A DNA stretch of 46,375 bases, from assembly GCA_025054615.1 (NCBI GenBank), contig JANWZO010000017.1, positions 1-46,375 on the forward strand, in the 5' to 3' direction. Origin of the DNA: Kiritimatiellia bacterium. GTDB taxonomy: Bacteria; Verrucomicrobiota; Kiritimatiellia; CAIVKH01. Under the pieces are notes generated by a model, which had not been told where the DNA came from, searched no databases, and worked only from the letters and a program-made list of their open reading frames with translations. A program made the translations under genes and the position numbers. Positions 25,207-31,765 of this stretch are shown here, piece after piece (the stretch's first letter is position 1; each line of letters begins with the position of its first letter).

Positions 25207-26916
25207 GTGACTGCAAACGACGAATACATCGTCGAGATTCTCGAAAGCGTTGGGCTGATTACGCACCAGCAGGGCGTTGAGGCCCTCAAAACGGCTCAGG
25301 ATGCTGACAAACCGGTTGTGGACGTGCTTGCCGAACGTCAGTTTGCGACGAAGAGCGATATTCTCAAAGCCCTCGCCAATCAGTTCGGCATGGAGTTCAT
25401 CCGGCTCAATGCGGCCGACATCGACCAGAGCGTGATCGACCTTGTCCCCGGCGAGATCGCGCGCCGATATCGCGTCGTCCCCGTTTACCGAATGGACAAC
25501 ACGATCGCCGTTGCAATCAGCGATCCCCTCGACGTCGAGACGCTCGACAGCCTGCGATATGTGCTCCGATGCGATGTCACCGGCGTCGTGGCCATGCCGG
25601 AAGAAATCGAAGCGGCAATCAACCAGTGTTACCCGGCCGCAGGGACGACCGTCGCCTCGATGTATGATGAATTGACGGAAGGCACAGTTACCATGCCCGG
25701 CGAAAAGCCGCCGAGCCTGGAGGGCGAGGACGAGGTGACCGAGGCCGACGCCCCGATCATCAAACTGGTTAGCCTGATCATCCTCGAGGCGTTCCGCAGC
25801 CGGGCATCGGACATACACCTCGAGCCGCTCGAGAAGAAATTCAGAGTGCGCTACCGCATCGATGGCGTATTGCACGAGGTCGAGAGCCCGCCCAAGCGGC
25901 TTCAATCCGCGATCATCAGCCGCGTTAAGATCATGGCGAACATGAGCATCGCCGAAAAGCGGTTGCCGCAGGACGGGCGCATCCAAATCAATGTTATGGG
26001 ACGTGACCTCGATCTACGTGTCTCGTCCGTCCCGTCGAACCACGGGGAGTCGATCGTGATGCGGATCCTCGACAAGGAGGGGCTGGCGCTCGGACTCCCC
26101 AAACTTGGATTCTTTTCCGATGACCAACAAACGTTTGAGCGGTTGATCGGCCTGTCCGACGGCATCATCCTCGTAACGGGTCCGACGGGATCTGGCAAGA
26201 CGACCACGCTGTATGCCTGCTTGAACCATATCAACAAACCCGACCGGAAGATCATCACGGTTGAGGATCCCGTCGAGTATCAGATCGCTGGCATCAACCA
26301 AGTTCATGTTCGCGCCGATATCGGCCTGACATTCGCGGCGGCGCTCCGGTCGATTTTGCGCCAGGCGCCGAATATCATCATGATCGGTGAGATTCGTGAC
26401 CTGGAAACCGCCGAGATCGCGGTCAATGCCTCGCTTACCGGGCATTTGGTGTTTTCAACGCTGCATACCAACGATGCGCCGAGCGCGGTGACCCGCCTGA
26501 TCGACATCGGCGTGAAACCCTTTCTGGTGGCGTCCTCGACCCGCGCGATCATGGCGCAACGCCTTGTGCGCCGGATTTGCGAGCGCTGCAAGGAGCCGGT
26601 TCGCCCGACGGACGCTGAATTGCGCGCTCTGGGCGCGCTCGCCGGCGAGGTCTCGGCCGCCCAACTGTTCCGCGGCCGGGGTTGCCCGGAATGCAACTAC
26701 ACCGGGTACCGAGGCCGCCTCGGCATCTTCGAAATTTTTGTGATCACGGACGAGATACGCCATATGATCTACGAGCGCGTCTCCGCGTCGCAATTGCGCG
26801 CCCGCGCCCGACAGTTGGGCATGCGCACGCTGCGGGAGGACGGAATCCGGAAGGTGGTTGCGGGATTGACGACGCTCGAGGAAGTGATCCGGGCGACGAT
26901 GGGAGATTCGAATTGA
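25207..26916 (+). CDS. PilB/GspE-type assembly ATPase, first copy
   Basis: A 569-residue hexameric secretion ATPase that powers filament extension at the inner membrane. Residues 1-140 form the MshEN/GspE N-terminal domain (about c-di-GMP-binding size). The conserved core follows: [31 protein letters not shown], Walker A GPTGSGKT (325-332), [12 protein letters not shown], and a His box ([13 protein letters not shown]). Four cysteines (C458, C461, C493, C496) form the zinc site. The Asp-box segment reads RQAPN (385-389) instead of the usual RQDPD. Start is GTG 25207; no closer ATG fits. It lies directly before pilT. A second copy lies after pilT; which copy is the main motor is unknown. Confidence 0.93.
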
Positions 26917-26917
26917 A

Positions 26918-28006
26918 ATGCCTGTCCCGGCGTCCCAGATACGCATGGCCGACCTGCTCGACCTCGTGATCGAGGAAGGAGCTTCGGATCTTCACGTAGG
27001 CGTCGGGCTGCCGCCGGTACTGCGCCTGCATGGGCGGCTGCATCCGATCGACACCGAGCCGCTCGAGCCCGCCGACACCGAGAGACTGATGGCCTCGATC
27101 ACGCCCCCCGAGCACGTGAAGCGGCTGCAGGAGATGGGCGGTGCGGATTTCGGCTTCGGCCATGGCGACAAGGGTCGATTTCGCGTGAGCGTGTTCCGTC
27201 AGAAAGGCGCGGTCGGCATCGTGTTGCGGCTGATCCCATCCCGCCTACTCACGCTCGAGGAAATCGGCCTGCCCCCGGGCATCCGGGATCTTCTCTACAA
27301 GCCGCGCGGTCTGATCCTCGTCACCGGTCCCACGGGATCTGGAAAAACCACCACGCTCGCCAGCATGCTGAACGTCATCAACGAAACTCGGGACGTTCAC
27401 ATCATTACAATCGAGGACCCCATCGAGTATTACCACCCGCACAAGCGGAGTGTGATCACGCAGCGCGAGGTCGGCGTGGACGTGCCGAGCTTTGGCGAGG
27501 CGTTGAAGCGGGCGTTGAGGCAGGACCCCGATGTGATTCTCGTCGGCGAAATGCGGGATCTCGAAACGATTCAGGCGGCCATCACGGCTGCGGAAACGGG
27601 GCATCTCGTTTTCGCCACGCTTCATACGACGGGCGCCGCTCGCACGGTGGACCGCATCGTGGACGCTTTCCCCATGGAGCAGCAAAACCAGGTGCGCACG
27701 CAACTGGCGGCAAGTCTCGAGGCCGTGATCTCGCAGTTGCTGCTCATTCGCAAGGACCGGCCGGGCCGCGTGGCCGCGTTCGAAATCATGGTGGCCACGC
27801 CCGCCATCCGGGCGCTGATCCGCGACAACAAGACCTATCGCATCACGTCCGACATCCAGACCGGCGCCAAGTATGGCATGATGACTCTGGACGATCACCT
27901 TGTCAGCCTCTACGAGCAGGGAATCATCGACTACGAGGAAGTGGTGACCAGCGCGCAAGACATCGAATCGGTCATGCAGAAAATCCAGCCGAAAGGCCGC
28001 CGATAG
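26918..28006 (+). CDS. pilT: Twitching motility / pilus retraction ATPase PilT
   Basis: PilT is the hexameric ATPase that retracts type IV pili. The 362-residue product has the N-terminal [12 protein letters not shown], Walker A GPTGSGKT (137-144), [24 protein letters not shown], and ATLHTTGA. The C-terminal AIRNLIRE-like motif appears as [12 protein letters not shown], which separates PilT from PilB. It starts 1 base after the stop of the first ATPase gene and ends 8 bases before the second, so all three form one transcript. Length is normal (about 345-370). Confidence 0.95.
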
Positions 28007-28014
28007 GAGCCGCC

Positions 28015-29727
28015 ATGTCAGACGTGGAATTTCGAGATCCTCTTCTGCAGCAGCTCGTGGACGACGGGCTGGTGACACGGGAACAGGCCCAGGAGGTCTT
28101 CGACGAGCACGAACGCACGGGCAAACCGGTCCGGCAGGTGCTGCTTGATATGCAGGTCGTGGAGGAGCCGGTCCTGTTGCAGGCGATCGCCACGCACTTG
28201 GGTACGCGTGTCGTGGACCTGAGCAGAACCGAAATCAGCCCGTATGTGCTGAAGGCAATTCCCTCGAGTATCGCCCGAATGTACAGCGTTGTGCCCGTAG
28301 AAGCGGATGCTCATTCGGTGACGCTGGCGACCTTTGATTTGATCAACCCCGAGGTCGTGGATGAGCTGAATTTCGTCCTCACACGGGATGTTTCGTTCGT
28401 CGTGGCCTCGGAGACAGACATCCGCGCGTTTCTGAACCAGCACTACGGCGATGCCGGCGAATCCATCAATGAGATGCTATCAGCGCTCGAAAGCGAGCTG
28501 GAGCACGTCGGGGAACAATCCATTCAGGTCAAGGGCGGGGATGAGATTGCCGAAATCCAGGAGATGGCAAACCAGGCGCCGGTTGTGCGTTTCGTCAATC
28601 TGGTCCTGTTCCAGGCGGTCAAGGATCGTGCGTCCGACATCCATTTTGAGCCGTTTGAAAACGAATTCCGAATCCGCTACCGGGTCGATGGGGCCCTTTA
28701 CGAAATGGCGCCGCCCCCCAAACACCTTGCGCTGCCCGTGATCTCGCGCCTGAAGGTCATTTCCGGGCTGAACATCGCGGAGCGCCGCCTGCCGCAGGAT
28801 GGGCGCATTCAGCTACCCGTCGCCGGCCGTACGATCGATTTTCGCGTGTCAACCCTACCGACGCAGTTCGGCGAAAGTGTGGTGCTGCGCGTCCTCGACC
28901 GAAGCTCGGTTCAACTGGAGCTGCAAAACCTCGGCATGCCGGAGGATGTGTTCAACGCGTTCACGGCGGACATCGAGAAACCCAACGGAATCGTGATTGT
29001 CACCGGTCCGACAGGTTCGGGGAAGACCACGACGCTGTATGCCGCCCTCCGCAAACTGAACACGATCGACAGCAAGCTCCTGACGGCGGAGGAGCCGGTG
29101 GAATACGACATCGAGGGCATCATCCAGATCCCGATCAACGAGGCGATCGGTCTGACGTTTGCCCGCGTCCTTCGCGCATTCCTGCGTCAGGACCCCGACA
29201 TCATCATGGTTGGCGAGATCCGCGACAAGGAAACCGCCGAGATCGCAATTCAGGCCTCCCTGACGGGTCACCTTGTATTTTCGACGCTTCACACCAATGA
29301 CGCGCCCGGCGCGGTCACCCGGTTGATCGACATGGGCGTCGAACCGTTTTTGATTTCATCGACGCTCGAAGGCGTTCTAGCCCAACGTCTGGTGAGGACG
29401 ATCTGCCAGGATTGCAAGACCCCTTACCAGCCGGACAAGGACGTGCTTGAGTTGCTGGGTCTGCGGCCGGACCAGGTTGAGGACCGGCCGTTCTATCACG
29501 GTGCCGGTTGCGTAAAATGTAACCAGACCGGTTATCGGGGTCGCCGCGGCATTTATGAGTACCTGCGGGTGACGGATCCGATCCGCGATTTGATCAACGA
29601 AAGGAAGCCCACGATCGTTATCCGGGACAAAGCCATGGAACTGGGCATGCGGACCCTGCGGCAGGACGGCATCCGATGCATTCTGGACGGTTACACCACT
29701 GTAGAAGAGGTGCTGAAATACACGTAG
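28015..29727 (+). CDS. PilB/GspE-type assembly ATPase, second copy
   Basis: A 570-residue homologue of the ATPase at 25207, with the same order: MshEN-type N-terminal domain (1-140), [31 protein letters not shown], Walker A GPTGSGKT (331-338), [20 protein letters not shown], and a CxxC...CxxC zinc site (ICQDC; CVKC). Unlike the first copy it keeps the canonical RQDPD but has [10 protein letters not shown] where the first has [10 protein letters not shown]. The two are clearly paralogues but far from identical, so the duplication is old and the copies probably have separate roles. An 80-base gap separates it from pilC. Confidence 0.93.
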
Positions 29728-29809: not shown

Positions 29810-31117
29810 ATGCCCAAATTCAACTACATAGCGCTTGACGCCCGCGGTCGGGAGAGCCAGGGCGAGATCGAGGCCGATAACCAGACCATGGCGATCGCCC
29901 GTATCCGAGAGCGCGGGCTTTTCCCAACTACAATCACAGAGGCGACGGCAAAAGCTCGCAAGACGGCCCCCACGAAACCGGGGGCGAAAACAAGAGGGTC
30001 GGCGCTCAATATGGAGATCAAGCTCCAGGCGCCGTCCTTCCTGCAGAAGGTCAAACCGAAAGAATTGATGGTGTTTACCCGCCAGCTCGCAACGCTCGTC
30101 GATGCTGGTTTGCCGCTCGTCCGCAGCCTGGAGGTTCTGGCCAAGCAGGAGCGCAATCCCATGTTGAAACGCGCTCTCATCGAGATGGCGGAGGCGATTC
30201 AGTCCGGCAGCACGTTTGCCGAAGCGCTCGCTCAGCATCCTCGGATTTTCAACAAACTCTACGTGAATATGGCCAAGGCAGGCGAGGTGGGCGGCGTATT
30301 GGACAAGGTCCTGCTTCGGTTGGCCGAGTTCATGGAAAAAGCCCAGAAGATTAAAAACAAGGTCGCGAGCGCCATGGTTTACCCCATCGTCGTCATGGTC
30401 ATGGCGGTCGGGATTTTGACCTTTCTGATGGTGTTTATTATTCCGAAGTTCAAGGAGATCTTCTCCGAACTACTGGAAGGGCAGGCGCTTCCCGGATTGA
30501 CTGAATTTGTGATGGGCGTCAGCGGTGCCGTGGCAGGCACGGTGGATCTCGGATTCGCGCGTGTTCCGGGGCTGTTGCTAGTGATCCTTGCGATTTTTCT
30601 GATCGTCAGCCTGGTGAAGCTGCTCGCGAAGACCAGCGCCGGGGCGTACATGATCGACAAATTGAAGTTCAACCTGCCCATATTCGGCCCGCTCATTCGA
30701 AAGACGGCGATCGGACGGTTTACGCGAACGCTTGGCACTTTGATGTCCTCCGGCGTTCCCGTGTTGCAGGCCCTCAACATTGTGCGCGATACTGCTGGGA
30801 ACGAGGTCCTGGCCCGTGCGGTCTCTATGGTGCACGACGCGGTCAAAGAGGGCGAAAACATGGCTCCGCCGATCGAGGCAACCAAGGTCTTTCCGCCGAT
30901 GGTCATCAGCATGGTGCAGGTCGGCGAGGAAACCGGCGAATTACCGGAAATGCTGATGAAGATCGCCGACAACTACGACGACGAGGTGGACAACGCAGTC
31001 GCCGGTCTAACGTCCGTCATTGAGCCGCTGCTGATCGTCTTCCTCGCGCTTGTGGTCGGAACCATCGTCATCGCCCTGTTCCTGCCGCTCATCTCGATCA
31101 TTGGTAAGTTGAGCTGA
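29810..31117 (+). CDS. pilC: Type IV pilus / type II secretion inner-membrane platform protein PilC/GspF
   Basis: PilC is the polytopic inner-membrane platform on which PilB and PilT act. The 435-residue product starts with FNYIALDARGRESQGEIEAD and has two T2SF repeats: ELMVFTRQLATLVDAGLPLVRSLEVL (about 85-110) and IGRFTRTLGTLMSSGVPVLQAL (about 305-326). Each is followed by a hydrophobic segment, and a last one lies at the C-terminus. MVQVGEETGELPEML is a further family motif. A short basic linker (about 45-65) is poorly conserved. Start ATG 29810. It is the natural partner of the ATPases upstream. Confidence 0.95.
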   Translation: MPKFNYIALDARGRESQGEIEADNQTMAIARIRERGLFPTTITEATAKARKTAPTKPGAKTRGSALNMEIKLQAPSFLQKVKPKELMVFTRQLATLVDAGLPLVRSLEVLAKQERNPMLKRALIEMAEAIQSGSTFAEALAQHPRIFNKLYVNMAKAGEVGGVLDKVLLRLAEFMEKAQKIKNKVASAMVYPIVVMVMAVGILTFLMVFIIPKFKEIFSELLEGQALPGLTEFVMGVSGAVAGTVDLGFARVPGLLLVILAIFLIVSLVKLLAKTSAGAYMIDKLKFNLPIFGPLIRKTAIGRFTRTLGTLMSSGVPVLQALNIVRDTAGNEVLARAVSMVHDAVKEGENMAPPIEATKVFPPMVISMVQVGEETGELPEMLMKIADNYDDEVDNAVAGLTSVIEPLLIVFLALVVGTIVIALFLPLISIIGKLS

Positions 31118-31147: not shown

Positions 31148-31765
31148 GTGCTGCCAATTACGAAAAGCCATCCCTCGCGTTGGAGCCGTGGCGAGCTGGC
31201 CATTGCGGCAGCAATCGGCCTGCTTGCGCTAGCCATCGCCTGGCCCGGTTGCCGAACCATTCACGCTCGCCGTCAGTTGGCGATGGTCCGACATGATATC
31301 GCCACGCTGGAAAGGGCCTTGGTCCGATATTTTCGGGAATACGGAGCGTGGCCCGTCCCGCCGAGTGTATCGCCTGGCGATGCGCACTTTGGAGGACTGC
31401 GTTCGAATTCGGAAATCGTCAGGGTCCTTCGGGCCAAAATGGCCCCAGGTGACCCCGAGGACGCATTGAATCCGCAACGGATCGTTTTTTTTGATGCCGA
31501 TTCGTATCGGCCCGGAGCGTCGGGTCTTGACGAAGACGGCTCGTTCCTCGATCCGTGGGGGACTCCTTACCAGATTGCGCTCGACGGGGACTATGACAAC
31601 GCCGTTACGCCGTCCCACGGCTCGACGGAGCGAATCTTGGGTTCCGGAGTGGCGATCCGATCATTTGGGCCGGACCGCCTACCCGATACGGCCGACGACC
31701 TTCGCTCATGGAAACAGGGCGCCGATGAACGGGTCAGAGCCGACGCAGGGATAACTTGGGAATGA
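31148..31765 (+). CDS. GspG-like pilin-fold protein with non-canonical N-terminus
   Basis: A 205-residue protein that looks like a major pseudopilin but lacks a standard prepilin signal. A hydrophobic helix runs from G15 E16 LAIAAAIGLLALAIAWP and leads into RALVRYFREYGAWP. The C-terminal half has LDPWGTPYQIALDGDYDN and SFGPDRLPDTADDLRSW, the Ca2+-loop type of GspG. Aligning E16 with pilin Glu5 and the P 17 residues later with Pro22 places arginine (R11, 31178-31180) where the cleaved glycine should be. It may therefore not be processed by prepilin peptidase, or the start or frame may differ. The start is taken as GTG 31148. It lies 30 bases after pilC. Confidence 0.75.
   Translation: MLPITKSHPSRWSRGELAIAAAIGLLALAIAWPGCRTIHARRQLAMVRHDIATLERALVRYFREYGAWPVPPSVSPGDAHFGGLRSNSEIVRVLRAKMAPGDPEDALNPQRIVFFDADSYRPGASGLDEDGSFLDPWGTPYQIALDGDYDNAVTPSHGSTERILGSGVAIRSFGPDRLPDTADDLRSWKQGADERVRADAGITWE

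Follow-up and report, generated by a model that had tools for sequence, protein, structure and literature searches.

A pilin-like protein with a degenerate prepilin peptidase site, encoded mostly next to pilC in the Kiritimatiellia

We describe a clade of pilin-like proteins in the Kiritimatiellia, labelled KPL in the present analysis, which keeps a predicted GspG-type fold and Glu5 and yet frees the prepilin peptidase cleavage site, separating two features that normally travel together. The member studied lies in the window (the whole analysed stretch of 46,375 nucleotides, on contig C17 of a genome of 2.48 Mb), directly behind pilC. We consider it somewhat probable that KPL, with its GspG fold and its origin from a pilin or pseudopilin, is no longer a substrate of prepilin peptidase and stays in the membrane as a partner of PilC.

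The KPL gene and its cleavage-site region

The operon in the window has the order pilB-type ATPase, pilT, pilB-type ATPase, pilC, KPL. The KPL ORF starts with GTG after a gap of 30 nt from the pilC stop. The features are as follows, with their basis in brackets.

25207-26916, + strand: pilB/gspE-type ATPase, first copy (family search)
26918-28006, + strand: pilT-type retraction ATPase (family search)
28015-29727, + strand: pilB/gspE-type ATPase, second copy (family search)
29810-31117, + strand: pilC, platform protein of the T2SSF family, directly upstream of KPL (family search)
31148-31765, + strand: KPL, GspG-fold pilin-like protein, 205 aa (sequence, orthologues, predicted model)
31148-31180, + strand: hydrophilic 11-aa leader MLPITKSHPSR (low confidence in the model)
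31178-31180, + strand: Arg (R11, codon CGT) at -1 of the expected prepilin peptidase site (sequence, orthologues, structure alignment)
31187-31342, + strand: long N-terminal helix, model residues 14-65 (AlphaFold model)
31193-31195, + strand: Glu5 (E16 of the window KPL), kept in 24 of 26 KPL members
31550-31561, + strand: DPWG motif of the GspG-type head (sequence, family profile)
31661-31699, + strand: SFGPDRLPDTADD, aligned with the GPDG..DD loop seen in GspG (PulG) chains of known structure (family profile)

The two pilB/gspE-type ATPase genes on either side of pilT are distinct, and a third gspE-type gene was found on contig C31 of the same genome.

Only one in-frame ATG, GTG or TTG start is available to the window KPL, and it gives the 11-aa leader and an N-terminus of MLPITKSHPSR-WSRGELAIAAAIGLLALAIAWP..., with W12 at +1 and Pro22 (P33) at 31244-31246. 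A preliminary description of this DNA had pointed out Arg at -1, Trp at +1, Glu5, Pro22 and a GspG-like C-terminus, all of which are confirmed in the sequence. For class III signal peptides a leader of 6-26 residues has been described, the last of which is called absolutely critical (PMC4471445). The hydrophilic leader of the window KPL falls within this range and a hydrophobic helix with Glu5 follows it, with Arg at -1 in place of Gly or Ala.

Two other sites in the N-terminal region were considered and rejected. Cleavage shifted to after Gly15 (between SRG and ELA in the window) does not agree with the family, as residue +4 is P in 13, A in 7 and G in 2 of the 26 KPLs, and otherwise T, N, C or Y. 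The sequence WPGC (residues 32-35) is not a lipoprotein site, the Cys being absent there in the six nearest relatives.

Distribution and conservation

A profile made from seven orthologues was run against 345 Kiritimatiellia genomes and, at E <= 1e-38, detected KPL in 25 of them. A more divergent 26th member (G386, L212), weaker than this cut-off, was found behind pilC, and further divergent KPLs were probably missed by the same cut-off. KPL lies directly 3' of pilC on the same strand in 18 of the 25 genomes. In the other seven (G164 and six genomes of family f16) there is no pilC within the fetched stretch and the gene is still kept. Within family f16, KPL follows a frame whose C-terminus, judged by eye, resembles alanyl-tRNA synthetase (L079, L083, L078, L168).

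Pilin genes behind pilC are also found apart from KPL. Of 28 Kiritimatiellia genomes examined, nine have in this position a pilin whose N-terminus is of the ordinary FTLIE type (L219, L221-L224, L226, L228, L231, L233), suggesting that a pilin gene there is common in the class. One of the nine, the pilin of G347, has Ser at -1.

The seven orthologues share 31 invariant columns, and the other six are 32-47% identical to the window KPL; that Glu5 and the C-terminal motif are kept at this identity in independent assemblies is more than would be expected by chance. Such conservation bears on the possibility that KPL is a decaying pilin relic and its changed -1 residue a symptom of lost function. 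The drift of the -1 site and the 320 of 345 class genomes without a match at E <= 1e-38 would fit decay, but the reading frames are open in all 25 genes and KPL is retained even where it has moved from pilC. Together with the invariant columns, this makes a relic highly improbable, and the conservation already contradicts it.

Conservation of the helix is selective. Glu5 is found in 24 and Pro22 in 20 of the 26 KPLs, and 20 of 26 have S or T at +2; Glu5 could thus be kept solely as part of a Ser/Thr-x-x-Glu helix cap. In its membrane part the helix has the family consensus S/T2-x-P/A4-E5, G11, S18 and P22, the window KPL having S2, G4, E5, A11, A18 and P22. The small residues at +11 and +18 resemble a helix-packing face and are present in canonical pilins too. 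The core FTLIELLVVIAII, near-invariant in 23 canonical pilins of the tree (rows of our own choice; L226 was left out, its motif being unmatched), is gone in KPL, which argues against ordinary polymerization of the protein.

The residue at -1 in KPL and in other pilins

Two reviews regard the -1 residue of bacterial pilins as invariably Gly, or Gly/Ala (PMC4471445, PMC10191384), the review from 2023 giving it as "Gly or Ala" (PMC10191384). The 26 KPLs have R in 10, G in 5, K in 4, P in 3, A in 2 and H and L in one each, so that Gly or Ala is found in seven and another residue in 19. The N-termini of other pilins were surveyed with the regular expression [FLMIVWY][ST].[IVLAFM]E in fetched loci, at most 30 for each search, among the matches listed. 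In the window's own genome all 19 matches to the N-terminal methylation motif carry Gly (14) or Ala (5). For a wider comparison we sampled 18 Kiritimatiellia genomes, eight of the window's family (seven of them with KPL) and ten further KPL-bearing ones, 17 thus carrying KPL. Their other pilin N-termini, among the matches listed, had Gly or Ala in 119 of 120 and Ser in one, a difference from KPL with a Fisher p of 3.9e-17, a value that ignores relatedness. A less strict survey gave 110 rows among the matches listed, with G in 62, A in 18, R in 10, S in 2, V, Q and N in one each and 15 unreadable; of the ten R rows, one was a KPL (L124) and nine were of rumen Lentisphaeria type.

The claim in the preliminary description that prepilin peptidase requires glycine was too strict, given Ala at -1 in 5 of 19 pilin N-termini of the same genome and the "Gly or Ala" of the review (PMC10191384). 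Its main proposal, a pilin helix that has lost its site, is likely retained in the membrane and is encoded beside pilC, agrees with the sequence data, the site being degenerate across the clade and the rest of the genome keeping Gly or Ala. The description had also named what would speak against it, glycine in the same column of homologues together with a sequencing error. The glycine is indeed present in 5 of 26 homologues, but we saw no sign of a sequencing error. Such an error is excluded by the same trait in independent assemblies, and no frameshift or read error needs to be invoked, since a residue other than Gly or Ala recurs in 19 of the 26 KPLs.

In a tree from which the trait columns had been left out, KPL formed one clade (bootstrap 100, SH-aLRT 99), inside which the -1 state changed between Gly/Ala and other residues at least six times. 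That the site was lost once was rejected by the AU test of a single clade of all 19 rows without Gly or Ala (p 2.6e-71; the group was named after seeing the tips). In G164 and G577 the sole possible start lies two residues before +1 (as in MR before LSRPE), which leaves these members no cleavable leader. At least six changes of state together with two leaderless members suggest that the constraint by prepilin peptidase is gone in KPL. Judging from these sequences, it is unlikely that cleavage matters even in the Gly-bearing KPLs, while some of the five Gly and two Ala members may be cleaved.

The short leaders raise the question of whether a mature N-terminus is produced without prepilin peptidase, by a start near +1 or by another protease, and the protein then polymerizes. 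Besides the two leaderless members, several other KPLs could start 2-5 residues before +1, and for a mitochondrial GspG described without a GspO homologue the authors propose another protease (PMC8134430). However, in 22 of 25 KPLs a leader of at least six residues would result from one of the possible starts, the only start of the window KPL lies 11 residues before +1, and the filament core is not conserved, making this route very unlikely.

A relaxed -1 residue is not a trait of the whole lineage, as the 119 of 120 sampled Kiritimatiellia N-termini with Gly or Ala show. It is true of five rumen genomes of Lentisphaeria type (G601-G605; L178-L207, L238-L245), four of them titled Lentisphaeria or Lentisphaerae and one untitled, in which ordinary FTLIE pilins have almost any residue at -1. 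Among the matches listed, their 42 N-termini had G in 7, S in 6, P in 6, A in 5, L in 5, R in 3, N in 3, H in 2 and others in 5 (Gly or Ala in 12 of 42). All five genomes have a Peptidase_A24 gene, and in the full-length ones IDMKVRLIPN replaces IDLDFMIIPD while GLGD is kept; from these sequences, the specificity of prepilin peptidase may be relaxed in this class. Thus, some peptidases of the phylum may accept residues other than Gly and Ala.

KPL could by the same token still be an ordinary minor pilin, if the peptidase of these bacteria tolerates its Arg, Lys, Pro or His at -1 and the cleaved product enters the fibre. The rumen pilins with R, S, P, L, N or H at -1 in peptidase-bearing genomes point this way, as does the conserved Glu5, which is described as required for filament assembly in known systems (PMC4471445, PMC10191384). 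Nevertheless, the other pilins of the sampled Kiritimatiellia keep Gly or Ala, and the one prepilin peptidase gene found in the window's genome has CxxC pairs and both catalytic motifs (IDLDFMIIPD and GLGD), which are canonical, unlike those of the Lentisphaeria. The part of the helix core that packs inside the filament is lost and the leader has only two residues in two KPLs, and we therefore regard an ordinary minor pilin as rather unlikely, though less so than maturation by another route. Our literature search, in which subscription papers were poorly covered, found no bacterial pilin-like protein reported to have lost its cleavage site.

Predicted fold

An AlphaFold model of the window KPL, based on an alignment of 11 rows, had a mean pLDDT of 85, a helix of 52 residues and a PulG/EpsG fold. 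With Z from 8.4 to 6.4, the structures nearest to the model were GspG pseudopilins from Vibrio, E. coli and Klebsiella, the best being 3fu1, 3gn9, 4lw9 and 3g20 (Z 8.2-8.4); the top seven rows were all GspG, a Z near 8 being modest. Foldseek searches with the model gave a best E of 8.7e-3 and no match under 1e-3. The sequence profile of KPL also retrieves PulG (E 1.5e-6), and this alignment includes the GPD..DD loop. Model residue 12 corresponds to residue 1 of 9iuf, 3sok and 2hi2 in the structure-based alignment, while for PulG 5wda the aligned range begins at model residue 8 instead. The C-terminal part contains DPWGTPYQ at 31550 and SFGPDRLPDTADDLRSW, and a GspG head fold with the C-terminal GPD..DD loop is seen, on the predicted model only.

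Family models did not recognize the protein. A Pfam search of the window KPL returned no family, PF07963 (N-terminal methylation motif) included, and TIGR02532 had no match in five KPLs and matched a pilin of the same genome (L002). In NCBIfam the window KPL matched solely GspG, apart from one chance-level match, and with 15.4 bits it did not reach the equivalog cut-off of TIGR01710 (88.85).

Contig C31 of the same genome has a separate T2SS-like cluster, in which a GspE of its own is accompanied by a GspF-like frame and by frames resembling GspG to GspK, and contig C1 a pilin cluster with GspH and a large GspK-like frame (GspE, GspH and the C31 GspK are family matches, the remaining names being assigned by eye). 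These separate clusters suggest that KPL is an extra GspG-fold protein beyond the usual major and minor subunits. Near the C1 cluster there is also a frame of 1311 aa (L177:4289-8224, - strand) with a sub-threshold match to an F5/8 type C domain; it is possibly a pilus-associated adhesin.

Proposed role

The model of KPL builds on its sequence, the clade, the drift of the site, the linkage to pilC and the fold prediction, and from these we infer non-cleavage, a location at PilC and a docking role. KPL would be a bitopic inner-membrane protein with a short cytoplasmic leader, one membrane helix and a periplasmic GspG-type head, descended from a pilin or pseudopilin, its head and Glu5 presumably still under selection. 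With the leader retained, it would be stuck in the membrane and not drawn into the fibre. Its place would be with PilC at the base of the pilus machine of type IV, where it might dock, hold or gate mature pilins. GspG is reported to contact GspF, the counterpart of PilC (PMC8134430), and this contact, the pilC linkage and a Glu5 without a freed N-terminus favour a fixed partner of the platform.

Each Glu5 in a type 4 filament pairs with the amine at the N-terminus of the next subunit above it (PMC10191384, PMC10790768). An uncleaved KPL would thus accept a subunit above and none below, and be held in the membrane. The boldest form of the idea of a fixed platform partner is a dedicated subunit of the pilus base, a mirror image of the tip subunit GspK, which we consider doubtful. 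The lowest pilin of the fibre would there find the partner of its N-terminal amine in the Glu5 of KPL, and having no freed N-terminus KPL could neither receive a subunit below nor leave the membrane; it might close the lower end of the fibre on PilC and determine the stop of growth or the end of retraction. An "initiating" pilin, as the preliminary description suggested, is unlikely, because the tip subunit is described as lacking Glu5 but being cleaved (PMC10790768), and KPL is the opposite.

KPL is of moderate interest, since a whole clade shows the trait and it is not a single oddity. It offers a natural test of the role of Glu5 without a freed N-terminus, and with a fixed pilin-like protein encoded next to pilC the question of what, if anything, marks the pilus base would become directly testable.

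Comparison with known systems

With GspG/PulG/EpsG, the major pseudopilin of type II secretion, KPL shares the predicted fold, DPWG, the GPD...DD loop, Glu5 and Pro22. In contrast to it, 19 of 26 KPLs have a -1 residue other than Gly or Ala; KPL also has no FTLIELLVV core, its gene lies close to pilC and pilT, and its score does not reach the cut-off of the GspG model. The tip-capping minor (pseudo)pilins GspK/PilK/ComGG resemble KPL in having a pilin fold with one of two assembly determinants missing, but the missing one differs. The tip-capping subunit is described as having no Glu5 and nothing above it, yet being cleaved (PMC10790768), whereas KPL has Glu at +5 and lacks the cleavage site. 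The mitochondrial GspG is likewise a pseudopilin with Glu5; it belongs to a system that has no recognized peptidase, and it interacts with GspF (PMC8134430). There, however, GspO is described as missing from the whole system and peptides suggest maturation, while the genome with KPL has a peptidase and a single protein that would lie outside its reach.
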